Source of the DNA: Pyrinomonadaceae bacterium
GTDB lineage: Bacteria > Acidobacteriota > Blastocatellia > Pyrinomonadales > Pyrinomonadaceae
DNA length: 64,000 nucleotides
Direction: 5' to 3'
NCBI GenBank assembly: GCA_030841085.1
Contig: JAVEDP010000003.1
Span: 62,001 to 126,000, forward strand
The translations under genes and the position numbers were made by a program. Shown piece by piece: positions 691 through 63,479 of this stretch (positions are counted from its first letter, which is position 1; every line of letters begins with the position of its first letter). The notes under the pieces are model-generated. The model was not told the origin of the DNA. It worked only from the letters and a program-made list of their open reading frames with translations, and did not search any database.

Positions 691-2691
691 ATGAAACAGG
701 TGAACAAAGCCCGAACAGTAGTATGGTTGCTGTACGTTTCACTCGCGCTGTTTTTCTTCACCGGCATTTTGATCACCAGACGGACCAACGCTCAGTCTGT
801 CGGAAACTTGAATAAGGCAAACAAGGTTTCAGCAGATCTAGTTGCACAAGTCGCAGGCTCACAAACACAAGATGCTCTGAAAGTAATTCTGCAGCTTAAA
901 GCACCGATGAGCGGCGCATTGAAAGTGCTGCTTAATCAGACAGGCGTCCATACCAAAGCCAACTTCAAGAACCTTAACGCCCAGAGTCTGGAAATACCTG
1001 CGGGCATTTTGCAATCTGTAGCCGCCTTTGACGAAGTATTTTTCATCTCGTCCGACAGGCAAACAGCTTCCCTCGGTCATCTTTCAGAAACGACGGGAGC
1101 CGATGCGGTGCGCACCACAAACGGAATTACTGTCGACGGCTTGGACGGCTCCGGCATAGGCATCGCCTTTCTCGATTCGGGAATTTACAGCGCCCATACT
1201 AACTTTCTCGATAAGAGCAGTAAGACACGAGTCGTAGTCAGCCAGGACTTTACTGGTGAGAACCGCACGACTGACTTCTACGGTCACGGCACACACGTGG
1301 CGTCGATGGCGGCGGGCAATGGCCGCGTTTCAAACCGCGCCTACCTCGGTATTGCGCCGAACGCGAACATCATCAACCTGCGAGTATTGAATTCCCGAGG
1401 CACTGGTACGGTGTCGGCGGTCCTGAGTGCCCTTGATTGGGTCATGTCCAATCGAGCGACTTACAACATCCGCGTCGTCAATATTAGTCTTGGCACCGCG
1501 GCAATCGACTCTTACAAAAATGACCCGATATGCCTCGCCGCGCGTCGCCTGGTTAACGTCGGGATCGTCGTAGTGGCTGCGGCGGGAAACAACGGCAAAG
1601 ACAGCGCGGGCCTGAAAGTTTATGGACAGATTCATTGCCCGGGAAATGAACCGTCAGTAATCACAGTCGGCGCCGCGAACACGTTCGGCACGGAAGCGCG
1701 CAACGACGATGGCGTTACCAGCTACAGTTCGCGTGGTCCAACGCGCAGTTCATGGACCGACAGCACTGGATCCAAACATTACGATCATTTGATCAAGCCG
1801 GATATCGTGGCGCCCGGCAACAAGCTAATCGGAGCCGAGGCGATAAATAATCTTTTGGTAACTCAGAACCTGCAACTGGATGCCGGCGTTACTTCCTCAG
1901 TTCCGCGCAAGCAGATGATTCTCAGCGGTAGCTCAATGTCAGCTTCGGTTGTGAGCGGCGGCGCGGCGTTGTTGCTTCAGGCAAATCCAACTTTGACGCC
2001 GAACATGGTGAAGGCAATTCTCATGTATTCGGCACAGCCGCTGGCCGGCTTTAACATGTTGGAGCAGGGCGCAGGTGAACTTAACCTCGAGGGCGCTATG
2101 CGCCTCGCTCAAGCAGTTCGCACAAACCTGGGAACAACCAAACCGCTGGGCGCGCCCTTATTGGCCACTGCACTACCCCAGCCCCAAACAACTATTGCGG
2201 GATCGACTTTTACCTGGTCCCAGGGACTAATCCTGGGCCAACATTTCGCTACGGGCGCGCCGCTTATTATGACCTACCAGCCGATCTATCCTATTGGCGT
2301 ATTGATGAGCGATAACGTCATTATCAGCGGCTGCGTGATCCTGAGCGAGGGAATCATTATCAGCGACGGAGTGATCATCACTGATGGGGTCACTGTCAGC
2401 GACGGCGTGATTATCACTGACGGAGTCTTTGTCAGCGACAACGTCATGCTAAGCGATGGGAATGTAATGGGTAACGGCTCGGTCTTTTTAGCGATGGGCA
2501 GTATCGTCAGTGACGGAGTGATTATCTGTGATGGAGTGATCATTACCGATGGCATCATCATTAGCGACCTTACAACAGTTACCGATGGCTTTATCGCAAA
2601 CGATGTGCTTCTACGGGCGCAATCTGCCCAGACTAACGGGGATCCCACCGCCTCATCTCAAGTTGTCTTAGATACAGCAGTTGATAATTAA
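691..2691 (+). CDS. Secreted S8 family subtilisin-like serine protease with C-terminal hexapeptide repeats
   Basis: Predicted exported endopeptidase of 666 aa. An N-terminal hydrophobic segment (about residues 10-28) followed by TNAQS looks like a signal peptide. The subtilase triad is visible: Asp162 in FLDSG, His199 in GHGTH and Ser415 in SGSSMSA, with oxyanion Asn300 in AAAGN. The stretch at about 40-135 resembles an inhibitor-type propeptide. Residues about 535-645 are unusual: a run of six-residue units of the form V-[IV]-[IT]-[ST]-D-G, as expected of a beta-solenoid or surface stalk; the DNA there repeats in a GATGGAGT/ATCATC pattern. Start chosen at ATG 691 with AGGAA upstream. The gene sits between two histidine kinase genes, but no functional link can be claimed. 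Confidence 0.9.
   Translation: MKQVNKARTVVWLLYVSLALFFFTGILITRRTNAQSVGNLNKANKVSADLVAQVAGSQTQDALKVILQLKAPMSGALKVLLNQTGVHTKANFKNLNAQSLEIPAGILQSVAAFDEVFFISSDRQTASLGHLSETTGADAVRTTNGITVDGLDGSGIGIAFLDSGIYSAHTNFLDKSSKTRVVVSQDFTGENRTTDFYGHGTHVASMAAGNGRVSNRAYLGIAPNANIINLRVLNSRGTGTVSAVLSALDWVMSNRATYNIRVVNISLGTAAIDSYKNDPICLAARRLVNVGIVVVAAAGNNGKDSAGLKVYGQIHCPGNEPSVITVGAANTFGTEARNDDGVTSYSSRGPTRSSWTDSTGSKHYDHLIKPDIVAPGNKLIGAEAINNLLVTQNLQLDAGVTSSVPRKQMILSGSSMSASVVSGGAALLLQANPTLTPNMVKAILMYSAQPLAGFNMLEQGAGELNLEGAMRLAQAVRTNLGTTKPLGAPLLATALPQPQTTIAGSTFTWSQGLILGQHFATGAPLIMTYQPIYPIGVLMSDNVIISGCVILSEGIIISDGVIITDGVTVSDGVIITDGVFVSDNVMLSDGNVMGNGSVFLAMGSIVSDGVIICDGVIITDGIIISDLTTVTDGFIANDVLLRAQSAQTNGDPTASSQVVLDTAVDN
2275..2640 (+). 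repeat. Coding hexapeptide repeat tract in the subtilase
   Basis: Roughly eighteen-base units encoding V-I-I-S/T-D-G variants follow one another over about 110 residues, interrupted once around 2460-2505 by a less regular stretch. The period of six residues is what left-handed beta-helices show, but Asp-Gly at the turn positions is not the classical LbetaH pattern. Confidence 0.7.
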
Positions 2692-2725
2692 ACTGGGTGT
2701 ACGCGGCTCGAGGGATCTCTTCGCA

Positions 2726-4519
2726 ATGTTAGTGAGCAAGCAAAATCTATTTAAGTGTTTTCTTTACACTGTAATTGCTGCCGGTCTGGCAGTAGTTCTC
2801 TTCTCTATCCAACGTCTATCACTTGCGCAATTCGATTGGCGCTTTCTCATATTAGCTGTCACCACGGTTGGCTTTTGTTCGCGCCTGGGCGTGAAGCTTC
2901 CGCGGGTGAGTGCGCAGGTCACCGTTGGCGATACGCTGATCTTTTTCGCAATGTTGCTTTACGGCGGTGAAGCCGCCACGTTGCTGGCAGCCGCTGAAGG
3001 CTTCGGGTTGTCGTACCGCGTGAGTAAGAAGTTGAGAGTGTTCCTCTTCAACGCTGCCCAGATGGCCTGTTCAACTTTCCTTACAGCCTGGGTACTACGA
3101 TCGCTGCTTGGTCCTATTGAGGCGCTGCCTCGTTACGACGATCCGGCCAGATACCTTGCAGCGACCTTCATCATGGCGCTGGTCCAGTACATCGCCAACT
3201 CTGGTCTGGCCGCGTTGTACACGGCCCTCAAGGACGATCAACCCGTCTGGCTCACCTGGCGCCGGCACTATCTTTGGACTTCCATTACTTATTTCGCAGG
3301 CGCGTCAGTTGCGAGTATCACCGTCGATGTCGTTGGCGCGATCGGTATCTCGGCTGCGCTTATCATCAGCCCGATCATTGCTATCATCTATTTTAGCTAC
3401 CGGACATACGTCAAGAAGATCGAGGCGTCGACGGAACTGCGTGAGAGTGAAGAGCGCTATCGGGAGTTGTTTGAAAACGCCAAGGATGCGACCTACGTCC
3501 ACGATCTCGGCGGCAGGTTTACCTCTGTGAACCGTGCCGCCGAAAAGTTGACCGGCTATACCAGGGCCGAGATTCTGGGAAAACACTTTGTTAACTTTAT
3601 TCCCGCGGACCAGATTGAGGTGATTAGCGAACACATAGTGCGCAAACTCGCTGACGAGGGCGAAACAACCTACGAGTCTGAAGTGCTAACCAGGGACGGC
3701 CGCAGCGTGGCCGTCGAAGTTAGCAGCCACCTTATTTCTGAAAGTGGGGTACCCGTCGCCGTGCAGGGCGCTGTCCGCGATATTAGCGAGCGCAAAGCGG
3801 CCGAAGAAAAACTCAAAGCTTACAGCGAGCAGTTGCGAGCTCTCTCTGCGCGGCTGCAGTCGGCCAGAGAACAGGAAGGCACTCGAATCGCGCGTGAGAT
3901 TCACGATGAACTCGGTTCGGCGCTTACCAGCCTAAAGTGGGATCTGGAGGAAATGGACAAAATGATGTCCGCTTCCAGCGATCAACCAAAACTCGCGGTG
4001 CTGCGTGGAAAATTACACGCGCCTATGAAGCTGGCTGACACGGCCATCAGCGCCATCCGCCGCATCGCGTCAGAATTGCGGCCAAGCATTCTCGATGATC
4101 TTGGCCTGGTGCCGGCAATCGAGTGGCAGGCGCAGCAGTTTCAGGAGCGCACCGGGATCATTTGCGATTGCGATTGTTTTCTGGAAAAAGTGGAGTTGAG
4201 CGAAGAGCAAGCAACAGCGGTCTTTCGCATCCTTCAGGAAGCCTTGACCAACGTTCTTCGCCACGCGCAAGCGACCAGGGTTCAAATTAAGATAAATATT
4301 GAGAACGGCCACTTTGCCCTGTCGGTGAGCGATAACGGCAAAGGGATCACCGAGAGTGAGAAGTCAGAACAGCAATCATTGGGAATACTGGGAATGCGCG
4401 AACGTGCTCACCTCATAAGCGGTGAGATAGATATTAATAGCGTCTCGGAACAAGGAACCGTAATTCTGGTACAAGTGCCTCTCCCCGCTCAGGCCAAAGG
4501 TTTTGAAATGACGAACTAG
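2726..4519 (+). CDS. Membrane-bound PAS sensor histidine kinase (HisKA_3 / NarX-DegS type)
   Basis: 597 aa. Residues about 10-230 form several hydrophobic segments typical of a MASE-like integral membrane sensor. A PAS domain follows (about 240-365: RELFENAKDATYVHDLGG to DISERKAAEE), then a coiled linker, the HisKA_3 phosphoacceptor His near 393 in REIHDELGSALTSLKWDLEE, and a HATPase_c domain with NVLRHAQATR, DNGKGI and LGILGMRERA. A TTG at 2681 in frame would overlap the protease stop; ATG 2726 begins directly before the first membrane stretch and is preferred. The NarL-type regulator 57 bases downstream is its likely phosphotransfer partner. The ligand is unknown. Confidence 0.88.
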   Translation: MLVSKQNLFKCFLYTVIAAGLAVVLFSIQRLSLAQFDWRFLILAVTTVGFCSRLGVKLPRVSAQVTVGDTLIFFAMLLYGGEAATLLAAAEGFGLSYRVSKKLRVFLFNAAQMACSTFLTAWVLRSLLGPIEALPRYDDPARYLAATFIMALVQYIANSGLAALYTALKDDQPVWLTWRRHYLWTSITYFAGASVASITVDVVGAIGISAALIISPIIAIIYFSYRTYVKKIEASTELRESEERYRELFENAKDATYVHDLGGRFTSVNRAAEKLTGYTRAEILGKHFVNFIPADQIEVISEHIVRKLADEGETTYESEVLTRDGRSVAVEVSSHLISESGVPVAVQGAVRDISERKAAEEKLKAYSEQLRALSARLQSAREQEGTRIAREIHDELGSALTSLKWDLEEMDKMMSASSDQPKLAVLRGKLHAPMKLADTAISAIRRIASELRPSILDDLGLVPAIEWQAQQFQERTGIICDCDCFLEKVELSEEQATAVFRILQEALTNVLRHAQATRVQIKINIENGHFALSVSDNGKGITESEKSEQQSLGILGMRERAHLISGEIDINSVSEQGTVILVQVPLPAQAKGFEMTN

Positions 4520-5209: not shown

Positions 5210-5579
5210 GAGAGATATCATTCACTTTTTAGATTTTTGCCTCACGCACAAATAAATTTAGTCCCTACGTTCGTCGAAACAGTCGCGTCTAAGGGCAAGC
5301 CTTACGCGCCTGTGGGTAAAATTCCTACATAAAAATCCAACTAACACTGATATTCGCAGGCGCGCTCTGTCTGTATGCTCAACGATGAAAGATAGAATTT
5401 TAGTTGGAAGGAGCGACAACGATCTGCGAACTGGACCAGTCAGCCTCGAATCTCAGGGTTTTCCTGATTGTAAATCTCAGGGCGATTGGTTAGTTTGTTG
5501 CCGTGCAAGGATTCTTGCAGCGTCAATCAGGACGACCTCAGCGCCAAGCCTTCCTGATTGCTCACGGCCCGCACCGAAA
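5210..5579. other. Intergenic, no confident gene
   Basis: The frame of the next regulator is open from 5385, but the added 65 residues show no domain and are low in coding character. The string TTCCTGATTG occurs twice (near 5460 and 5550). No terminator hairpin was found. Confidence 0.4.
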
Positions 5580-6278
5580 ATGCCGAAACCTTATCGTTCA
5601 TCTGGGGCAGGAAGAGTAAAGGAAGCTCAAGCTTCAAAACCAATTCGAGTGTTGGTAGAGGCTCAGCATGCCCTTGTTCGTGCGGGTATTCGCGCGCTGA
5701 TCGAGCAAATCCCGGAAGTACAGGTTGTGGCCGAGGCAGCGGAGGGCCCGCAGAGTTTTCAACTGATCAAAGACTACCATCCCGACATCCTACTGCTTGA
5801 CGTGATTTTGCCGTCGGTAACCGCATTCGAAAGCTTGCAAGAAATGGTGGAGAAGTTTCCCAAAGTGCGCGTAATTGTGCTCACTCTTCAAGAGAACCAG
5901 GAATACGCGATTCAAGCATTTCGGGCGGGAGCCGCCGGATATATTTCGAAAAACGCGGCGAGTGCCGAGCTCGAAAAAGCAATTAAGTCGGTGGCCCGTG
6001 GCGAAAACTATCTCGGGTCGGAATTATCGCAACAGGCTGTCCTTAAGTACTTAAAAGATCCGCGTGCGATTTTGTCGGAACTCACGGCGCGTCAGCGTGA
6101 GGTCTTGAAGATGGTTGCGGAAGGCCTCGCGACTAAAGAGATTGCCAAGCGCTTAAACATTAGTGTGAAAACCGTGGAGACGCATCGGGCTCAATTAATG
6201 GAGCGCCTGGACATTCACGATGTGGTGGGCCTGGTCCGCTATGCGTTGCGGATCGGATTGGTAAGACTTGATGAATAA
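5580..6278 (+). CDS. NarL/FixJ-family response regulator with degenerate acidic pocket
   Basis: 232 aa from ATG 5580. Receiver fold followed by a LuxR-type HTH (LTARQREVLKMVAEGLATKEIAKRLNISVKTVETHRAQLMERL). The phospho-Asp is present in ILLLDVILPS (about residue 74) and the Lys in YISKNAA, but the acidic pair that binds Mg2+ at the end of beta strand 1, normally DD, reads VLVEAQHALVRAG. Only one acidic residue remains, so phosphorylation may be weak or absent, as in atypical receivers. DNA binding should be intact. The frame stays open upstream to 5385; a longer product is possible but unsupported. No kinase gene is adjacent. Confidence 0.85.
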   Translation: MPKPYRSSGAGRVKEAQASKPIRVLVEAQHALVRAGIRALIEQIPEVQVVAEAAEGPQSFQLIKDYHPDILLLDVILPSVTAFESLQEMVEKFPKVRVIVLTLQENQEYAIQAFRAGAAGYISKNAASAELEKAIKSVARGENYLGSELSQQAVLKYLKDPRAILSELTARQREVLKMVAEGLATKEIAKRLNISVKTVETHRAQLMERLDIHDVVGLVRYALRIGLVRLDE

Positions 6279-6631
6279 ACCTGGAAAACATTTTGCGGGA
6301 AGAGTGGCGTAGTTCGATGCGAGCAAATACCTGACTACGTTCTCAGGAACTTCCCGATTGTACGGTAACGTACATGAATATACATTGTGTGGCGGATCAC
6401 CTCTTTATTTGTCCCTCGCTCCAACGTCCCAGCGCGACTCAAGTAACCCGGCCGTCCGCAAAAAACTTTTCTCCACCGCGGGAGAACCTCCGAAGTTTTG
6501 AAACTGATTTGTATTCGTTCTTCGCCGAAGACAAGTCCTTGCACCAACCCCCGATTTCACGAGCCGTGACGATGTTGTAATGAGCTCTTCGGATTTTCTT
6601 CGCTGAGATATTAGTTGGGGTGCATTCAAGC
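6279..6631. other. Intergenic, no gene seen
   Basis: About 350 bp. An imperfect palindrome lies at about 6359-6374 (TGTAC, six bases, GTACA). Short frames on both strands lack ribosome sites and domain content. Confidence 0.4.
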
Positions 6632-8077
6632 ATGGGTAGATTGATGGAAAACTCCACTCTGCAAACAAAGACTCACTTGCAGCCGGCACAACCAGTTGAT
6701 CTGGTGTCGCTCTTGTCACAGAAAGTTGTGGGCCAATCCGCCGCGACCAAAGCTATCGTTCCGTACGTCTACATGTATCAATCCGGCCTGGCACCGGCAG
6801 GTAGGCCAGCCGGGATCTTTCTGTTGTTAGGTCCAACCGGCACCGGCAAGACAAAAACTGTGGAAGCGATTGCCGAATTGCTGCATGGCAACGAAAAGAA
6901 AATGCTCAAGATTGATTGCGGCGAATTTCAGATGGAGCACGAAACGGCGAAACTTGTTGGGGCTCCTCCCGGTTATCTCGGTCATCGTGAAACGACACCA
7001 CTGCTCACCCAGGAGCAGTTGACTGGGGTAACCAGCCCGGAGTGTGATTTGGCTCTTGTACTATTTGACGAAATAGAAAAAGCCGCGCATTCCATAATCA
7101 AATTGTTGCTGGGCATTCTCGACAAAGGCATCTTGCGCCTCGGTGACAACACTTGCGTTGATTTTGAAAAGAGCCTGATCTTTTTCACCAGCAACCTCGG
7201 CGCGCGCGAGATGATGAAAGAGATCAACCCAAATATCGGGTTTCAAAGCTCCACGGCTAAATCAGCGGCCAGTATCACGGCCAGACTCGAAAGCATTGCT
7301 TTAGGGTCGGTGAGAAAACGCTTCTCGCCGGAATTTGTTAACCGCATCGATGCGGTTGTCACTTACAACCCTCTTGACGCCGGTGCCATAGAATTGATTC
7401 TCGATCACGATATACGCGTGCTTCAAGAGCATGTGAACCTGCGGCTGGGCGATCGCTACTTTTCTCTGGACATTACTACTGACGGCAGAGAATTTCTGCT
7501 GCGCAAGGGAGTGAGTGCGGAATACGGTGCGCGCGAGCTGAAACGAACCATTCACCGGCAACTTACGCAACCGCTGGCAACCATGGTGGCCCGCGGCGAT
7601 ATTCTGCCGGGCGCACAAGTGACTGTTTCAGCCGCTAACGGCGCCGAGAACCTATCAATAACAGCTTCCGGGGGTGGCGCGATCCGTGCGCGTACCCCGC
7701 CGGCGATTTTGATTGTGGACGACAACCACGACCTGTTGTTTTTTCTGGCGGCTGAGTTAAGAGAGGAAGGCTGGGAGGTTTTGATCGCTGAGAATGGACC
7801 ACAGGCTCGTCTCGCTTTCTATCAACGCCCACCTGGTGTCGTGCTGCTCGACTACATGCTGGATGACGACGACGGGTTAAAGATGGCAATTGAATTTCAG
7901 GAGCAGGCGCCTTTGACACAGATAATTATGATGACCGGGGGCGGATTTTCAGACGAAGAGCAACTCATCTGTGTACAGCGAAACTTCCCGATTTTGTACA
8001 AGCCCTTTCTGGCCCAGGATGTTTTGAACCTGGTAAAAGTTCGCTATCGCAGTGCTTACACTGCTGCCGCCGTTTAG
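6632..8077 (+). CDS. Clp/Hsp100-type AAA+ ATPase fused to a C-terminal receiver domain
   Basis: 481 aa from ATG 6632 (GTG 6620 and ATG 6644 are alternatives; GGGG lies 11 bases before 6632). Residues about 20-330 match the ClpA/B/C second AAA+ module: VVGQSAA, Walker A GPTGTGKT (about 67-74), the pore-type loop APPGYLGH, Walker B VLFDEIEKA, sensor FTSNLGA, Arg finger region RFSPEFVNRIDAVV and the D2-small domain with SAEYGARELKR. NIGF resembles the loop that docks ClpP in ClpA/ClpX. From about 358 a receiver begins (ILIVDDNHD, phospho-Asp in VVLLDYMLD, Lys in LYKPF). Such a fusion would put an unfoldase under phosphorelay control. No ClpP gene is nearby. Confidence 0.85.
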   Translation: MGRLMENSTLQTKTHLQPAQPVDLVSLLSQKVVGQSAATKAIVPYVYMYQSGLAPAGRPAGIFLLLGPTGTGKTKTVEAIAELLHGNEKKMLKIDCGEFQMEHETAKLVGAPPGYLGHRETTPLLTQEQLTGVTSPECDLALVLFDEIEKAAHSIIKLLLGILDKGILRLGDNTCVDFEKSLIFFTSNLGAREMMKEINPNIGFQSSTAKSAASITARLESIALGSVRKRFSPEFVNRIDAVVTYNPLDAGAIELILDHDIRVLQEHVNLRLGDRYFSLDITTDGREFLLRKGVSAEYGARELKRTIHRQLTQPLATMVARGDILPGAQVTVSAANGAENLSITASGGGAIRARTPPAILIVDDNHDLLFFLAAELREEGWEVLIAENGPQARLAFYQRPPGVVLLDYMLDDDDGLKMAIEFQEQAPLTQIIMMTGGGFSDEEQLICVQRNFPILYKPFLAQDVLNLVKVRYRSAYTAAAV

Positions 8078-8455
8078 TACCGAGAATTCAGTCATGGCCG
8101 AAAACCTTTTTTGCAGATCGCGTGCTGCCTCAAGCGAGGCCAGTGCATGCGTGTGGAAAAAGACGTCGCCTTGGGGGCGAGAGCGACGTCTTTTTCCCAA
8201 AATTTCATAGACGGATGGAAATATCTGAGCCGACAAGTAACCGTCTCGAATCGTGTGCCTTGATGTTGAGGGGCACGCGCCACGACGAAGGACGCCGTTT
8301 TGGGGCGAAAGCGGCGCCCTTCGTCGAATTAGAGAAATACGAAGTTTCCTTGAGCCCAGACTGAGATCTATTTTCAGATTGCGTAAGCCCCAGGTAGCGG
8401 GGCGCGCACAATGAAGAAGGATGCCGCCTTTGGGGCGAAAGCGGCGTCCTTTTTC
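8078..8455 (+). repeat. Triple tandem array of terminator-like hairpins, 130-bp period
   Basis: Three hairpins end at 8195, 8325 and 8455, exactly 130 bp apart. Arms: 8157-8169 with 8183-8195; 8284-8297 with 8312-8325; 8413-8427 with 8441-8455. All have the apical core GGGGCGA(A/G)A and pyrimidine-rich 3' sides, like rho-independent terminators. Each is preceded by a smaller stem (8127-8140, 8255-8276, 8387-8403). The units have diverged between hairpins but the layout is constant, as expected of duplicated small RNA genes or a multi-hairpin leader before the kinase gene at 8475. No similar element was seen elsewhere in the window. Confidence 0.7.
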
Positions 8456-8474
8456 AATTTTGAAAGCAACAAAA

Positions 8475-10037
8475 ATGACAAAGCTGTTTCCCGATAACTC
8501 TGAGATCGCCATTGAGCTGCTCAACAACTCGCCGGACGCGATGATGGCGCTCTCGTCTTCGGGTGAGGTGGTCTATTGGAACAAAGGCGCTGAGCATACT
8601 TTCGGCTATAGCAGAGACGAAGCCCTTGGACGACAGCTGAGCGAGTTGATAATACCGGCCGATCGCCTTGAGGAAGAGGAGAAATTTTTTAACGAAGTAA
8701 TACATTCCGGCTATTCGAGCTTCGAATCCCAACGCCGTAAAAAGGACGGCTCGGTCATTGATGTCGAAATCTCAACCAAGGTCATCCGGAATGATCAAGG
8801 CCTGGTCAAATACGTTCTCTCGTCCAAAAGAGATAGTACTGAACGCAAACTCGCACGGGAGGCGCTGCGAAGTTCAGAGGTTCGCTACCGGCGCCTGTTT
8901 GAATCAGCGAGAGATGGCATTCTAATTCTCAATGGAAGTTCGGGAGAGATTGTTGATGTCAATCCCTACCTAATCGAAATGCTTTGCTATTCCAGGGAAG
9001 AACTGCTGGGCAAAGAACTATGGGAAATCGGAACTTTTAGAGATATTGCTGCTTCGAAGGCGGCGTTCATGGAATTACAAGCGCGAGACTATGTGCGTTA
9101 TGACGATTTGCCGTTGCAAAGCAGCAAAGGAAAAATCAGCCATGTCGAGGTTGTGGCTAACGGTTACGTCGAGGACCAGCATCGTGTAGTGCAGTGCAAC
9201 ATTCGCGATATTACTCCGCGCCAACTGGCTGAGGAGAACTTACTGCAAACGAACCAACGCCTTGAGAAGGCAGTGGCCGACCTGCATGCGAAAACGAGCG
9301 AGCTGGCCACCATGACGCAACAGCTTTGGCAAGCGTCGAAACTCGCGACCATGGGTGAGTTAGCCGCCAGCGTCGCTCACGAACTGAACAATCCGCTGGC
9401 GACGATCTCGTTGCACACCGAACTGCTAGCGAATTCCTTCGCTGCTGACGATCCTGGCCGGAAACCGTTGCTGGTGATTGAGCAGGAAGTCGCACGCATG
9501 GCAAGTTTGGTGAGTAATCTGCTGGTGTTTAGCCGTCGCAGTCATCAACAATTATCTACTTTGAATATTTGCGACGAATTAACCAGCACGCTCGACTTTA
9601 TTCAGTACCACCTGCGCGGTTACAACATCGATATCGTAAAGGACTATGCCTGCGGTCTGCCGACGGTACAGGGTGATCGGGAACAGTTGCGGCAAGTATT
9701 TGTGAACCTGATAACCAACGCAAGCGATGCAATGCCGCGGGGTGGAACACTTACAGTTCGAGGCCGTATCGGAGCTATGCCCGCCGGCGGGCAGGCGTTG
9801 GTAATTGAATTTTCCGATACCGGGACCGGCGTTCAGACCGGGGACTTGCCTAAGCTTTGGGAGCCATTCTTCACCACCAAGCCGGAAGGCAAAGGTACTG
9901 GCTTGGGTTTAGCCATTTGCCGCCGGACCGTCGAAGAACACCGGGGAACAATCGAGATCGAAACCCGTCCGGGAAAAGGAACCACCGTGCGCATTACGTT
10001 GCCGGCAACTGCCGTAGAGAGAGAGGCCGTAGCGTGA
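8475..10037 (+). CDS. PAS-PAS sensor histidine kinase
   Basis: 520 aa, no membrane segment, so probably cytoplasmic. Two PAS domains (about 10-130 and 135-255; YWNKGAEHTFGYSRDEALG and VNPYLIEMLCYSREELLG), a coiled coil, a HisKA domain with the phospho-His near 301 in SVAHELNNPLATI, and HATPase_c with NLITNASDAMP, DTGTGV and GTGLGLAICRR. The NtrB-like HELNNPL box suits pairing with NtrC-type or receiver partners. The frame opens upstream at 8421 inside the third hairpin; ATG 8475 is preferred because it follows the hairpin and starts at the PAS fold. The next gene starts inside its stop codon (GTGA), so the two are coupled. Confidence 0.88.
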   Translation: MTKLFPDNSEIAIELLNNSPDAMMALSSSGEVVYWNKGAEHTFGYSRDEALGRQLSELIIPADRLEEEEKFFNEVIHSGYSSFESQRRKKDGSVIDVEISTKVIRNDQGLVKYVLSSKRDSTERKLAREALRSSEVRYRRLFESARDGILILNGSSGEIVDVNPYLIEMLCYSREELLGKELWEIGTFRDIAASKAAFMELQARDYVRYDDLPLQSSKGKISHVEVVANGYVEDQHRVVQCNIRDITPRQLAEENLLQTNQRLEKAVADLHAKTSELATMTQQLWQASKLATMGELAASVAHELNNPLATISLHTELLANSFAADDPGRKPLLVIEQEVARMASLVSNLLVFSRRSHQQLSTLNICDELTSTLDFIQYHLRGYNIDIVKDYACGLPTVQGDREQLRQVFVNLITNASDAMPRGGTLTVRGRIGAMPAGGQALVIEFSDTGTGVQTGDLPKLWEPFFTTKPEGKGTGLGLAICRRTVEEHRGTIEIETRPGKGTTVRITLPATAVEREAVA

Positions 10038-13000
10038 GTACTCAAGTTGAGGAACCTGCCATACGAGAAGGCGCTGCCAGCGGCGTGCGGTCCAACGCGC
10101 CGGTCGGAAAAATATTGGTTGTGGATGACGAACCAGAGCTGCGAAGCGTCCTGGTCGAATCACTCCTACGGCAAGGTTACGAAGTAGTTGGTTGTAGTTC
10201 CGGGTTCAAGGCGCTGGCAGAACTGCGCCAACACGACTATGACGTGCTACTGACTGATCTAATGATGCCCGAAATGGATGGCATCGCCCTACTAAAAGCG
10301 GCGCTGGAAATAGATCCTCATCTGGTCGGCATCATGGTGACTGGCCAGGGCACTATTCAAACAGCGGTCGACGCCATGCAGACCGGCGCGTTTGATTACG
10401 TGCTCAAGCCCTTTCGCATGCAAACGCTGCTGCCGGTGCTGACTCGGGCCATGAACCTTCGGCATCTGCAACTTGAGAACGTACAACTCCGCGAGACGGT
10501 AGCCATACACAGTTTGTGCCAGACGATCGCCTTCACACTGGATCCGCAGACGGTGCTGAGTAAGTTGGCAGATGCGGCCCTGCAGCAAAGCGATGCGGAC
10601 GAAGTTTCGATTCTTTTGCCGACTAACGACGGCACTGAACTCTATGTTGCGGCAGTGCGAGGAGAGAAACGTGAGCGACTGCTGGGCGAGCGCGTGCCGC
10701 TTCAGCAAAGCATATCAAGCTGGGTGGCGCGCGAGCGCAAGCCCTTAATTCTTAACGGAGTCGTGCGCGACGAGCGTTTCGTAGCGCTGTGGCCCAGATC
10801 CGACATTCGCTCGGCAGTCTCAGTTCCAATGGAGGTAGCGAATCGATTAGTTGGCATCATCAATCTAAACGTGACCAATCGCCTGCGTCCTTTCACGTTA
10901 GGACAAATGAAAGCCCTGAGTATTCTCGCCAGCACCGCAGCGGCGGCGTTGGAAAGCGCCTCGCTCTATGCGCAGGTGGAGCAGGCCGAGAAAAATTATC
11001 GTTCCATTTTTGAAAATGCCGTCGAAGGAATTTTTCAGTCGACCCCAGACCGGCGCTTTCTCACGGTCAACCCGGCGCTGGCTCAGATACTTGGATACGA
11101 CTCGCCTCAGGAAGTAATAGCCTCGTTCACGGATATTGGTAAGCAACTCCACGTCGATCCCGCAAGTCAGGAGCAGCTGGCGCAGATCCTCGACGAGCGC
11201 GGAATTTTGCAAGGCTTCGAGTTTGAAGCTTACCGGAAAAATGGAGAAAAGATTTGGCTGTCGCTGAACTTGCGGCTGATTCGCGATGAAAGGGCGATGG
11301 AAGTTTCGCGTGAAGGAACCATCGAAGACATTACCGAACGCAAACGGGCTGAGATGGAGCGGCTCGTCATGTTTGAAATCATTCAGGGTATCAGTACCAG
11401 CGCCGATTTGGACGCGCTGCTAAATCTTGTCCATCAAACAATCCGGAAAGTGGTCTATGCCGAGAATTGCTTTGTCGCGCTGTACGACGAACCCAGCGAT
11501 CACCTTGAAATGCAGTTCTTCGTTGATAAGTATGACAGTTCGCCGCCACCGCAGAAGCTTGGCAAAAGCTGTGCGGCCTATGTCTTTCGTACCGGCGAAG
11601 CCTCCCTCATAGGCAAGCAGCTTTTTGCAAAACTGGTTGCCGCGGGCGAGGTCGAACTGGTAGGCGAACCATCTCCATCGTGGCTCGGCATTCCCCTTAA
11701 TACTCCGGCAAAGACGGTGGGCGTTCTGGTGGTGCAGCACTACGAGGACCATTCGGCCTACACTCAGCGCGACGTTGACCTTCTTTCTTCAGTGGGCAGT
11801 CAGATCGCGGTTGCTATTGAGCGCAAGCGTGCGGTTGAAGCGCTTACAAACTCAGAGGCGGAGATGCGAGCCCTCTTCGCCGCCATGACCGACGTCATCT
11901 TTGTGCTTAATGCCGACGGGCGCTACCTGAGAATCGCGCCAACGGATCCGACCTTTTTATATGAAGCATCAGCGCAGATGATAGGCAAGACGTTGCACGA
12001 AGTGTTTCCCAAAACCGAGGCCGACTTGTTTCTGAAGCACATCCGGCGCGCCCTCGCTGAAGGCAAACCCCACCGAGTTGAATACTACCTCCAGATGGCG
12101 GGGGTCCAGGTGTGGTTTGACGGCAATGTTTCCCCAATGTCTGGTGACTCAGTTCTTTGGATCGCGCGCGATATTACCGAACGCAAACGAGCTGAAGGCG
12201 TGTTGCGAGAGACTGTAAGAAGCAAAGAGGAAGCGCTCGCCCAGCTCGACGCGCTGCTCTCTTCCGCGCCGATAGGTTTCGCTTTTTACACTCCTGATTT
12301 GGTCTATCAGCGCATTAATAAATCACTCGCTGCCATCAATGGCTTGTCCGTGGAACAACACCTGGGGAAAACGTTGCGCGAAGTGTTGCCGGAAATGTCC
12401 CTGGATTTGGAACCACTGCTCCAGCAGGTGATGGATAAGGGAGAACCGATTCTGGACCTCGAGATCACCGGTGAACCGCAACCGAATTCTACGCAGGAAC
12501 ACCACTGGCTCGTGAGTTTTTATCCGGTCCGGATAACGGGAGGCGAGTTGCTCGGCGCCGCAGTGCTCGTTTCGGATATTACCGAGCGTAAGCAGGCGGA
12601 GGTAGCGTTACGCGAAAGCGAAGAGAGGTACCGTCTCCTCTTTGAAAGCAATCCACAACCAATGTGGGTTTACGATGTGGAGACGCTTGCCTTTCTTGCC
12701 GTTAACAAATCCGCGGTGCGTCATTATGGATACTCACGCGAAGAGTTTCTGAGTATGACCATCGCAGACATTCGTCCGGCTGAAGATCTGCCGTTCCTGT
12801 ATGAATCGGTGGCCCAGAGTTTCGACGGACTTGATCGCGCAGGCGAATGGCGACATCTCAAAAGAGACGGAAGCATCATTGAAGTAGAAATCACTTCTCA
12901 CGCCCTGGTGTTCGCCGACCGGCGTGCCGAGCTTATCCTCGCTAACGATATTACCGAACGTAATCGCCTGGAGGCGGCGCTGCTTTCCAGTGAAGCGCAA

Positions 13001-21321: not shown

Positions 21322-23859
21322 ATGAAAAATAACGGAAAAAACAGTGAGCACGAAATTATTCTCCAGGGCGACCGCATCGCGGTGGAGATCGTCACCAAAG
21401 TCCGGCGCGAAGAAGCTCTGCTGAAAGCAGAGACTTTACAGCACGCGATTTTCAACAGTGCCAACTTTTCGAGCATTGCAACGGACGCAAAGGGCGTCAT
21501 CCAGATCTTCAACGTCGGCGCCGAGCGGATGCTGGGCTATACCGCCGGCGAGGTTGTGAACAAGATCACGCCGGCCGACATTTCCGATCCGCAGGAAGTG
21601 ATCGCGCGCGCCAAAGAACTGAGTATCGAATTGGGAACCCCGATTACGCCGGGGTTTGAGGCGTTGGTGTTCAAGGCCTCGCGCGGCATCGAGGACATCT
21701 ACGAGCTGACTTACATTCGCAAGGATGGCAGCCGCTTCCCCGCGGTCGTGTCGGTCACGGCGTTGCGCGATGCCCAGGATGCCATCATCGGCTATCTGCT
21801 GATTGGCACCGACAACACCGCGCGCAAGCAGGCGGAAGAGGCATTGCTAAAAGCTGGAGCACTGCAGAACGCCATTTTCAACAGCGCCAACTTCTCGAGC
21901 ATCGCAACAGATGCGAAGGGTGTGATCCAGATCTTCAACGTCGGCGCTGAACGCATGTTGGGTTATGCGGCTGACGAAGTGATGAACAAGATCACTCCGG
22001 CCGACATTTCCGATCCGCAAGAGGTGATCGCGCGCGCCAAAGCGCTGAGCATCGAACTCGGAACGCCGATCGCGCCGGGCTTCGAGGCGTTGGTGTTCAA
22101 GGCCTCGCGCGGCATCGAGGACATTTACGAGCTTACTTACTTTCGCAAAGATGGCAGCCGCTTCCCCGCGGTCGTGTCGGTCACCGCCCTGCGCGATGCC
22201 CAGGACGCGATCATCGGCTACCTGCTGATCGGCACTGACAACACCGCGCGCAAGCATGCGGAAGAAGCACTGCTCAAGGCGGGAGCCCTGCAGAATGCGA
22301 TTTTCAATAGCGCCAACTTTTCCAGTATCGCCACCGACGCGAAGGGCGTGATCCAAATCTTCAACGTCGGCGCCGAACGCATGTTGGGCTACACGGCCGA
22401 CGACGTGATGAATAAGATCACGCCGGCTGACATTTCCGATCCGCAGGAGGTGATCGCACGCGCCAAAGCGCTGAGCGTCGAACTCGAGACCTCGATCGCG
22501 CCGGGCTTCGAAGCCCTGGTGTTCAAGGCCTCGCGCGGCATCGAGGACATCTACGAATTGACTTATATCCGCAAGGACGGCAGCCGTTTTCCGGCGGTCG
22601 TGTCGGTCACCGCTCTGCGCGATGCGCAAGATGGAATCATCGGCTACCTGCTAATCGGCACTGACAACACCGCGCGCAAGCAGATCGAGGCAGAGCAACT
22701 GCAGCTCGGCCAGCGACTGCGCGACCATCAGTTCTACACTCGCTCGTTGTTCGAAGCGAACATCGACGCACTGATGACCACCGATCCGGCCGGCATCATC
22801 ACCGACATCAACAAACCAATGGAGGCGCTCACCGGTTGCACGCGCGACGAGCTGATCGGGGCGCCATTCAAAAACTACTTCACCGATCCGGACCGGGCCG
22901 AGGCTGGCATCAAGCTGGTGCTGAGCAAAAAGAAGGTCACCAACTACGAACTGACCGCGCGCGACCGAGACGCGAAGGAAACGGTGGTGTCTTACAACGC
23001 CACGACCTTCTACGATCGAGACAGAAGACTGCAAGGCGTGTTCGCGGCGGCGCGCGACATTACCGACCGTAAACGTGTAGACGAAAAGTTAAAACTCTAC
23101 TCGGACAAATTAGAGCGCAGCAATCGCGAGCTGCAGGATTTCGCGCAGGTTGCTTCGCACGACCTCCAGGAACCGCTGCGAAAAATTCTCTCCTTTGGTG
23201 ACCGGCTCAAAACAAAAGCTGGTGAATCACTCGACGAGGATTCTCGAGATTACCTCCAGCGCATGACTAGTGCAGCGGCCAGGATGCAGACGCTGATCAC
23301 CGACCTGATGTCATTCTCCCGAGTTGAAATTAAGGGACAAGCCTTCGTCCCGACAGATCTGAACGTGATCGCCAGAGAGGTGAGCGCCGATTTAGAGACA
23401 CGGATCGAGCAGGCCGGTGGGCGGGTCGAAATTGAAAAACTCCCGACCATCGATGCCGACCCGATGCAGATGCGGCAACTGCTGCAGAATCTGATCGGCA
23501 ATTCTCTCAAGTATTATCGCGCCGGCGTTCCGCCCGTCGTCCGGATCTCATGTCAAAAGCCAACCGCCCGGCGTTTAGAATCTCTGGATGAGAGTGCCGC
23601 GCCTCGTCAATTCTGTGAAATCCTGGTAGCAGATAACGGCATCGGGTTTGATGAGAAGTACCTCGACCGCATCTTCACCGTCTTCCAGCGGCTACACAAG
23701 AAAGGTGAATACGAAGGAACCGGAGTAGGCCTCGCGATCTGCCGCAAGATAGTCGATCGGCACAGTGGAACTATCACGGCACGCAGTAACCCAGGGCAAG
23801 GCGCGACCTTCGTCGTCACGCTGCCAGTCATACAACCAAAGGAAGTGGAAGTGTTATGA
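21322..23859 (+). CDS. Multi-PAS histidine kinase with three near-identical PAS repeats
   Basis: 845 aa. Residues about 32-457 are three consecutive 142-residue PAS/PAC units (each starting near ALLKA, with NAIFNSANFSSIATDAKG and ending LLIGTDNTARK), followed by a fourth, different PAS (about 470-590), HisKA (FAQVASHDLQEPLRKI) and HATPase_c (GTGVGLAICRK). Cytoplasmic by absence of membrane segments. The stop overlaps the ATG of the Rcp1-type receiver gene (ATGA), naming that receiver as its likely phosphoacceptor. The kinase core is shared with the gene just upstream. Repeat units may have been misjoined in assembly, but their differences at scattered positions argue that all three are real. 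Confidence 0.9.
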   Translation: MKNNGKNSEHEIILQGDRIAVEIVTKVRREEALLKAETLQHAIFNSANFSSIATDAKGVIQIFNVGAERMLGYTAGEVVNKITPADISDPQEVIARAKELSIELGTPITPGFEALVFKASRGIEDIYELTYIRKDGSRFPAVVSVTALRDAQDAIIGYLLIGTDNTARKQAEEALLKAGALQNAIFNSANFSSIATDAKGVIQIFNVGAERMLGYAADEVMNKITPADISDPQEVIARAKALSIELGTPIAPGFEALVFKASRGIEDIYELTYFRKDGSRFPAVVSVTALRDAQDAIIGYLLIGTDNTARKHAEEALLKAGALQNAIFNSANFSSIATDAKGVIQIFNVGAERMLGYTADDVMNKITPADISDPQEVIARAKALSVELETSIAPGFEALVFKASRGIEDIYELTYIRKDGSRFPAVVSVTALRDAQDGIIGYLLIGTDNTARKQIEAEQLQLGQRLRDHQFYTRSLFEANIDALMTTDPAGIITDINKPMEALTGCTRDELIGAPFKNYFTDPDRAEAGIKLVLSKKKVTNYELTARDRDAKETVVSYNATTFYDRDRRLQGVFAAARDITDRKRVDEKLKLYSDKLERSNRELQDFAQVASHDLQEPLRKILSFGDRLKTKAGESLDEDSRDYLQRMTSAAARMQTLITDLMSFSRVEIKGQAFVPTDLNVIAREVSADLETRIEQAGGRVEIEKLPTIDADPMQMRQLLQNLIGNSLKYYRAGVPPVVRISCQKPTARRLESLDESAAPRQFCEILVADNGIGFDEKYLDRIFTVFQRLHKKGEYEGTGVGLAICRKIVDRHSGTITARSNPGQGATFVVTLPVIQPKEVEVL
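21415..22692 (+). repeat. Three tandem 426-bp PAS-coding repeats
   Basis: Units 21415-21840, 21841-22266 and 22267-22692, each exactly 426 bp, in frame. They differ by scattered, mostly synonymous changes plus some substitutions (for example YIRKDG versus YFRKDG), showing a recent duplication kept in frame. Confidence 0.9.
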
Positions 23860-63049: not shown

Positions 63050-63479
63050 GGCTTTGTACGAACTAGTCCACGTTAGCGGACGACCGATAATAGCCCAGCG
63101 ATTTATCGCTGGGAGCGTTCGCCAACATTAGTCTGAGTCCGTGAAACGGACGGTTGAAAGGTATCCAGCCATCATCATTCAACCGTCCGCTTCACGGACT
63201 TCGTTCTTTCGCGTCTTATCCCAGCAGTGAACTGCTGGGCTTCTCTCATTCGTCCGCTATCGCGGACTGGATAAAAAATACCAGAGCCCGCGGCGCGGGC
63301 GACAGCATCACATCACGCAAAGGCTATCGCCCGCTCCGCGGGCTGGCATCGTCTGTGGACCATTAACCTGCGGTTCCGCTGCGCTTCACCCCAAGCTTTA
63401 CGCTATCGCCTGCTCCGCAGGCTGGAACGTGGGTGAGGAATCGTAACCTCTCCTTACAATCTTTATCACTCATCACTCA
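63050..63479. repeat. Hairpin-rich intergenic region
   Basis: At least five palindromes: CCCAGCGATTTATCGCTGGG (63094-63113), GTCCGTGAAACGGACGGTTG arms 63137-63158/63178-63199, and CCCAGCAGTGAACTGCTGGG, CCGCGGCGCGGG and GCCTGCTCCGCAGGC types between 63220 and 63425, then the ACTCATC microsatellite (63467-63489). No gene. Confidence 0.75.

Follow-up and report, generated by a model that had tools for sequence, protein, structure and literature searches.

The window, which is the whole 64,000-nucleotide stretch of Pyrinomonadaceae DNA that was analysed, carries three tandem hairpin units inside a two-component signalling cluster. Comparison with related genomes identifies the unit as a conserved RNA element, as judged from the sequences, whose structure, tip and genomic place are kept in eight genomes belonging to three genera. 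The units are probably small regulatory RNAs of a new family, which is a prediction. The explanation that we favour, tentatively, is that the units are tandem paralogues of one structured small RNA of about 95 nt that is part of the two-component cluster and would act in trans. The RNA family has a defined structure and strand, a constant tip and a kinase cluster to which it is linked, and it can be tested in a cultured carrier.

Three hairpin units and their relatives

The units lie on the + strand downstream of a gene for an AAA+ regulator and upstream of a histidine kinase gene. The genes of the cluster in the window and the three units are as follows.

2681..4519, + strand: first gene of the cluster, histidine-kinase-like by its translation
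5385..6278, + strand: response regulator of the same cluster (Response_reg and GerE/LuxR domain, from Pfam)
6620..8077, + strand: AAA+ protein (AAA_2, ClpB_D2-small) fused to a response-regulator receiver domain (from Pfam), upstream of unit 1
8108..8202, + strand: RNA unit 1, with P1 formed by 8119-8125 and 8145-8151 and P3 by 8155-8169 and 8183-8197
8241..8330, + strand: RNA unit 2, with P1 formed by 8252-8259 and 8272-8279 and P3 by 8283-8301 and 8308-8326
8369..8460, + strand: RNA unit 3, with P1 formed by 8380-8384 and 8404-8408 and P3 at about 8413-8455
8475..10037, + strand: histidine kinase (PAS, HisKA and HATPase_c, from Pfam), downstream of unit 3

The boundaries of the units are the extent covered by the covariance model described below. 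The kinase start at 8475 is our own choice, the longest listed frame beginning at 8421, within the unit 3 hairpin.

Each of the three units consists of a small stem (P1/P2) followed by a long hairpin (P3), which confirms the layout described in an earlier, sequence-only reading of this DNA. The apex letters given in that reading had to be corrected to GGGGGCGAGA in unit 1, where the tip GGGGCGAG occupies positions 8174-8181, and to GGGGCGAAA in units 2 and 3. A T-rich 3' side had been ascribed to every unit, and it is found in units 1 and 3, both of which have a run of five T, but not in unit 2, where the longest T run is two and the stem contains one A.C mismatch. The 3' arms of P3 end at about 8197, 8326 and 8455, and these ends are about 130 bp apart as had been claimed, whereas the small stems begin at 8119, 8252 and 8380 with spacings of 133 and 128 (128 and 130 by another count), which makes the supposedly exact 130-bp period an approximate one. 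The period is not conserved either, as the two copies in G014, a genome of the same genus, start 558 bp apart.

Folding energies of units 1, 2 and 3 are -49.7, -50.4 and -49.8 kcal/mol with z-scores of -5.3, -3.9 and -6.3, respectively, and for each unit none of 200 shuffled sequences folded as well. The three hairpins are real and not the product of chance. No Rfam 15 family reached its gathering threshold at the units or at the seven relatives' loci that hold copies, and four sub-threshold hits at the units (best E 0.37) were dismissed as chance-like.

A DNA similarity search of 59 genomes returned one convincing match besides the window, to G014, which has two copies; a match in G011 (E 0.003) was rejected as it reads as coding-like DNA. 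A first covariance model was built from five copies, the three in the window genome (G000) and the two in G014, and a search of 119 genomes of the family with this model found six further single copies with E-values of 5e-11 to 5e-8, in G136, G137, G139, G140 and G141 of genus g3 and in G088 of genus g46. A second model was built from all 11 copies and run on 119 genomes of the order and 162 of the class. The same 11 copies were the only matches better than 1e-12 (2.5e-18 to 5.3e-13, scores which are not independent since each copy is part of the model), and the next match was at 2e-7. Searching the relatives by covariance, as the sequence-only reading had proposed, thus yields 11 strong copies with a covarying structure in eight genomes of three genera: three in G000, two in G014 and one in each of the other six. 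At E<=0.001, the class search gave matches in 18 genomes, all in family f1.

Weaker matches to the first model had E-values of 5e-5 to 0.1, and nine of them were read, with L076, L079 and L083 left out. L072, L074, L075, L077 and L080 resemble ordinary terminators, L073 is coding-like, and L078, L081 and L082 carry G-rich tips that differ in kind from that of the units; all nine were rejected.

It had been pointed out that the same hairpin dispersed singly as a REP element would speak against tandem small RNAs. At E<=0.01, the model recovers nothing in G000 beyond the three clustered units, and relatives with one strong copy carry it in a cluster of this kind, so the possibility that the units are a dispersed palindromic repeat was rejected. 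The tip motif with up to one mismatch occurs in four places, two of which are units, and a contig scan for an exact 18-mer of the tip returned 27 stretches that look unrelated by title alone. The window shows no enrichment of sequences complementary to the tip, with three matches (one of them inside unit 1) versus 2.4 expected.

Unit 1 is nearest to the first copy in G014 (78%), and units 2 and 3 are nearest to the second copy (81% and 79%, respectively). Since units of the window are nearest to different copies in G014, these similarities suggest that at least one duplication is older than the split between G000 and G014.

Covariation and the selected strand

In all 11 strong copies a 5' stem is followed by a long 3' hairpin whose tip carries the letters GGGGCGA, and on the + strand the fold runs from a short unpaired lead through the 5' stem-loop to the long hairpin. 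Covariation was counted over 24 pairs in an alignment of the 11 copies that had been made with a model of similar structure, and in this alignment 88.8% of the cells (24 pairs in 11 copies) are paired. Both sides have changed in 10 of the 24 pairs compared to 3.3 expected from shuffling, and none of 500 shuffles reached 10; the covariation score is 0.289 versus 0.199 for shuffles, none of 500 of which reached the observed score. Helix P3 has 95.9% of its cells paired and changes on both sides in 8 of its 18 pairs. When the structure was slid along the alignment, 40-63% of the cells were paired. A slide of +2 gave slightly more cells with changes on both sides (16 versus 14) but fewer such pairs (6 versus 10) and a lower score.

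P1 appears to be shifted by one column in the model-fitted alignment for most of the g3 and g46 rows, with 66.7% of its cells paired. In a recount by hand, in which partner strings were picked so as to pair, P1 pairs throughout except for one broken pair in G137, and this hand-fitted count includes exchanges of U-A and G-C at pair 5 and of G-C and C-G at pair 6. The units of the window have 64-73% pairwise identity and the paired columns covary over the 11 copies, in agreement with the earlier suggestion that the sequence had drifted while the structure was kept. Selection on RNA structure and a tandem array of one unit are both supported by these results.

Over all copies, the cells of P3 include 19 G.U and one A.C. 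Because the 19 G.U cells would be mismatches on the opposite strand, the RNA under selection is that of the + strand. A 192-codon minus-strand frame (7949-8527) that runs across the units was treated as a chance occurrence given that the G.U pairing favours a + strand RNA. A 4-bp pseudoknot between UCGC of the 5' lead and GCGA of the tip was considered by eye and dropped, as it is broken in G088 and G140.

Signalling cluster, termination and flanking DNA

The copies are located inside a cluster of sensor-kinase and response-regulator genes, mostly just upstream of a kinase gene, and the link of the units to the kinase cluster is conserved in relatives. Names of genes in the relatives were read from translations, and Pfam was applied to the genes of the window and to one 72-codon frame in G014. 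The gene upstream of the RNA encodes the AAA-regulator in G000, G014 and G140, and a response regulator in G136, G088, G139, G141 and G137. Among the 119 family genomes, whole-length matches to the AAA-regulator of the window (70-79% identity) are found only in G014 and G140.

Duplicated copies of a plain terminator, or of a hairpin in the 3' UTR of the regulator gene upstream, could account for the units without any role in trans, a reading that we consider improbable. The model start of the first unit is 31 nt past the stop codon of the AAA-regulator gene in G000 and 44 nt past it in G014, and the listed frame of the AAA-regulator in G140 stops within the 5' part of the unit, as expected of such hairpins, and units 1 and 3 resemble intrinsic terminators. 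The corresponding distance is 406-635 nt in G136, G137, G139, G141 and G088, however, and the conserved 5' stem and the GGGGCGA present in all 11 copies are left unexplained. A scan for terminator-like hairpins covered 464 kb of G000, with 117 hits, and 406 kb of G014, with 71, and GGGG in the loop or within 4 nt on each side of it occurs in 5 of the 117 and 4 of the 71, one in each case being a unit of the family; these counts are rough as the rules of the scan missed all the other units. Terminators of G000 and G014 do not seem to carry a G-rich tip as a rule, and the rarity of such a tip in other terminator-like hairpins also argues against plain terminators.

The long hairpin is present in all 11 copies, whereas a clear T run is absent from most of them, a further point against plain terminators. 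From the end of P3 onward, units 1 and 3 and the G136 copy (3 of 11 copies) have a longest T run of five, the second copy of G014 and the G141 copy (2 of 11) one of four, and the other six, where the T residues are interrupted by C, one of two. The earlier description of the hairpins as intrinsic terminators therefore fits the three copies with five T but fits the rest less well, and the sequences make an intrinsic terminator well founded for some copies only. Because six copies have T runs of two, termination at P3 is doubtful for several copies.

A scan of positions 6000-10500 found no sigma-70-like promoter on the + strand, and the 40-nt spacers that precede the units of G000 and G014 had nothing in common above the level of shuffled sequences in the seven pairs tried. 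Flanks of the six more distant relatives were compared in 15 pairs at three lengths, with results above a z-score of 2.5 reported. G139 and G141 have similar upstream flanks along 150 nt (z 24.7, a value reached in 0 of 200 shuffles), and the 70 nt that follow the RNA in these genomes are not conserved (z -1.0), which is the pattern expected of a promoter in front of an RNA that ends at P3. G140 and G088, which belong to two genera, share a block of the form GATTAGC..CGAGTC..GGG in the last 40 nt upstream of the RNA (L097 5086-5125, - strand, and L095 5343-5382, + strand), a likeness equalled in 0 of 3000 shuffles at 40 nt and 9 of 3000 at 150 nt. Weaker likeness was seen between the flanks of G137 and G140 (79 of 3000 shuffles) and between those of G139 and G141 at 40 nt (22 of 3000). 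The conserved upstream blocks could be promoters or regulator sites and are candidates for such.

Downstream of the RNA, a listed kinase-like start follows the last unit after 15, 86, 83, 107, 74 and 74 nt in G000, G014, G136, G088, G139 and G140, respectively, and thus within 15-107 nt in six of the seven genomes that have a readable one. In the seventh, G137, the distance to the next listed kinase-like start is 693 nt. A membrane-protein-like frame that is cut by the contig end starts 130 nt past the RNA in G141, and the first copy in G014 precedes not a kinase gene but a 72-codon reading frame (L062 7514-7732), which lies between the two RNA copies and had no match in Pfam. Matches to the kinase of the window at E<=1e-70 occur in 8 of the 119 genomes, seven of which have the RNA. 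The eighth, G012, has a match of 1.1e-71 (42% identity) whose C-terminal half seems to be of another kind, and it is absent from the matches listed for the two models; G141 is the only carrier of the RNA without a kinase match at this threshold. Among the 119 family genomes, the RNA and the kinase of the window largely co-occur.

Since the last unit is so near the kinase gene, it is possible, if rather unlikely, that the units form a cis-acting leader of the kinase in which stacked hairpins would limit or gate read-through. Besides the short distances and the co-occurrence in 7 of 8 kinase-bearing genomes, such a leader is consistent with the 19 nt between the end of P3 and the ATG at 8475 in the window, which leave scant room for another promoter, and with predicted folds of G137 and G139 in which the 5' arm of P3 pairs with letters of P1/P2 once the 3' arm has been removed. 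No alternative fold of this sort was common to the 11 copies when these were compared by eye, which is a weak test. The 693 nt in G137 and the different reading frame behind the first copy of G014 do not fit a leader of the kinase, and the kinase next to the RNA in G139 and G140 seems to be of another kind, the best match to the kinase of the window lying further downstream. The lack of conservation downstream of P3 in G139 and G141 also argues against a leader, though a word of 10 nt in that region is common to G141 and G088 (67 of 3000 shuffles).

Proposed mode of action and comparison with known RNAs

A short RNA that acts in trans, the explanation we favour, is suggested by the two-stem unit kept in each copy while copy number varies (3, 2 or 1), by the different frame that follows the first copy of G014 and by the constant tip. 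Each unit, or at least units 1 and 3, would give rise to a separate short transcript ending at P3, and one of the cluster's regulators might activate transcription of the units. The RNA would then act in trans through its exposed G-rich tip, which may pair with C-rich targets or hold a protein, and the number of copies would set the dose. Points against this explanation are that no sigma-70-like promoter was recognised near the units, that the spacers of G000 and G014 are dissimilar, that few copies have five T, that tip complements are not enriched in the window, that the regulator frame in G140 overlaps the RNA and that the last unit is so near the kinase gene.

Several homologous copies with a conserved RNA structure, as found here, are a feature of the multi-copy small RNAs. 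The available extracts of the report on LhrC1-5 of Listeria monocytogenes describe five homologous copies of a short small RNA with stem loops, in which the terminator loop takes part in target binding, CU-rich sites are used and expression of all copies depends on the two-component system LisRK (PMC4132741). As far as these extracts go, the units resemble LhrC in having several homologous copies and stem loops, but differ in that the copies sit inside the signalling cluster and in that the constant tip is G-rich where LhrC has CU-rich sites; this is a comparison of features. The csRNAs of the streptococcal CiaRH regulon, according to similar extracts, are 51-202 nt long and occur several per genome with promoters activated by CiaR, and many have two stem-loops, one of which is the terminator (PMC3091779). 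Their most similar part is unpaired between the stems and complements Shine-Dalgarno sequences and start codons (PMC3091779), whereas in the units the constant part is the tip of the 3' hairpin; on this account, the two-stem layout and the shortness of the RNA are shared. No csRNA-like promoter motif was identified at the units, and the likeness to LhrC and the csRNAs, as we interpret it, is one of layout.

What is new is the RNA family and not the proposed mechanism, which is of a known kind, that of a multi-copy small RNA tied to a two-component system. A literature search found no work devoted to acidobacterial small RNAs, its results being partly swamped by other bacteria. Should the cluster exert its output through these RNAs, multi-copy small RNAs of two-component systems would have arisen in this lineage too, with a recognition loop that is G-rich rather than CU-rich.

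The decoy RNAs RsmX, RsmY and RsmZ as well as CsrB likewise combine several copies, a two-component link and a repeated loop motif, and the sites recognized by CsrA/RsmA carry the motif ANGGA. The units share with these RNAs the several copies, the two-component-linked place and the constant loop, and they could accordingly be imagined as decoys whose G-rich tip titrates an RNA-binding protein with copy number as the dose, as RsmX/Y/Z do for RsmA. A constant loop on a structured stem, present in several copies next to signalling genes, is in keeping with such a role, but the constant letters are GGGGCGA and not ANGGA and each unit has only one such loop, and we regard decoys as highly improbable.

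G-rich tips were also found in RNA-like elements elsewhere. A second, highly conserved element occurs in nine genomes (L198, which is G000:C16:88286-88373 on the + strand, L190-L195, L197 and L200) and consists of a stem TTCTCC..GGAGAA followed by a GC-rich hairpin with the tip GGGGGAGG and a T-rich end. Six of its loci were scanned and had no match in Rfam. At the two loci that were read (L191 and L195), it lies between what we take to be gamma-glutamyltransferase-like and peptidase-like genes. A third element, in eight genomes of genus g9 (L099-L104, L107 and L108), has a small stem and a hairpin with the tip GTGAAGGGGAGAGCAC, and is followed in six of the eight stretches by the start of a presumably malate-dehydrogenase-like gene. 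The eight g9 matches (E 2e-7 to 2.6e-4) were kept out of the kinase-cluster family as their 5' half and their place differ. It is conceivable, though decidedly unlikely, that small RNAs with a G-rich tip form a class of their own throughout this bacterial family, one that includes the kinase-cluster family and at least two unrelated elements with GGGG(G) loops and a small 5' stem; the model that drew out the other elements itself carries GGGG, and the recurrence is partly built in. Such a class, if true, would imply a shared partner, either a protein that binds G-rich loops or C-rich target sites.

Two further observations concern parts of the window away from the units. An Acido-Lenti-1 RNA (RF01687) scores above gathering at 63065-63113 on the - strand, and a second, sub-threshold copy lies about 110 bp off on the other strand (63220-63268, +). 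Positions 21404-22683 hold three copies of a 426-bp tandem repeat with 86% matches, and since this length is a multiple of 3, the repeat perhaps corresponds to repeated domains of a coding gene.
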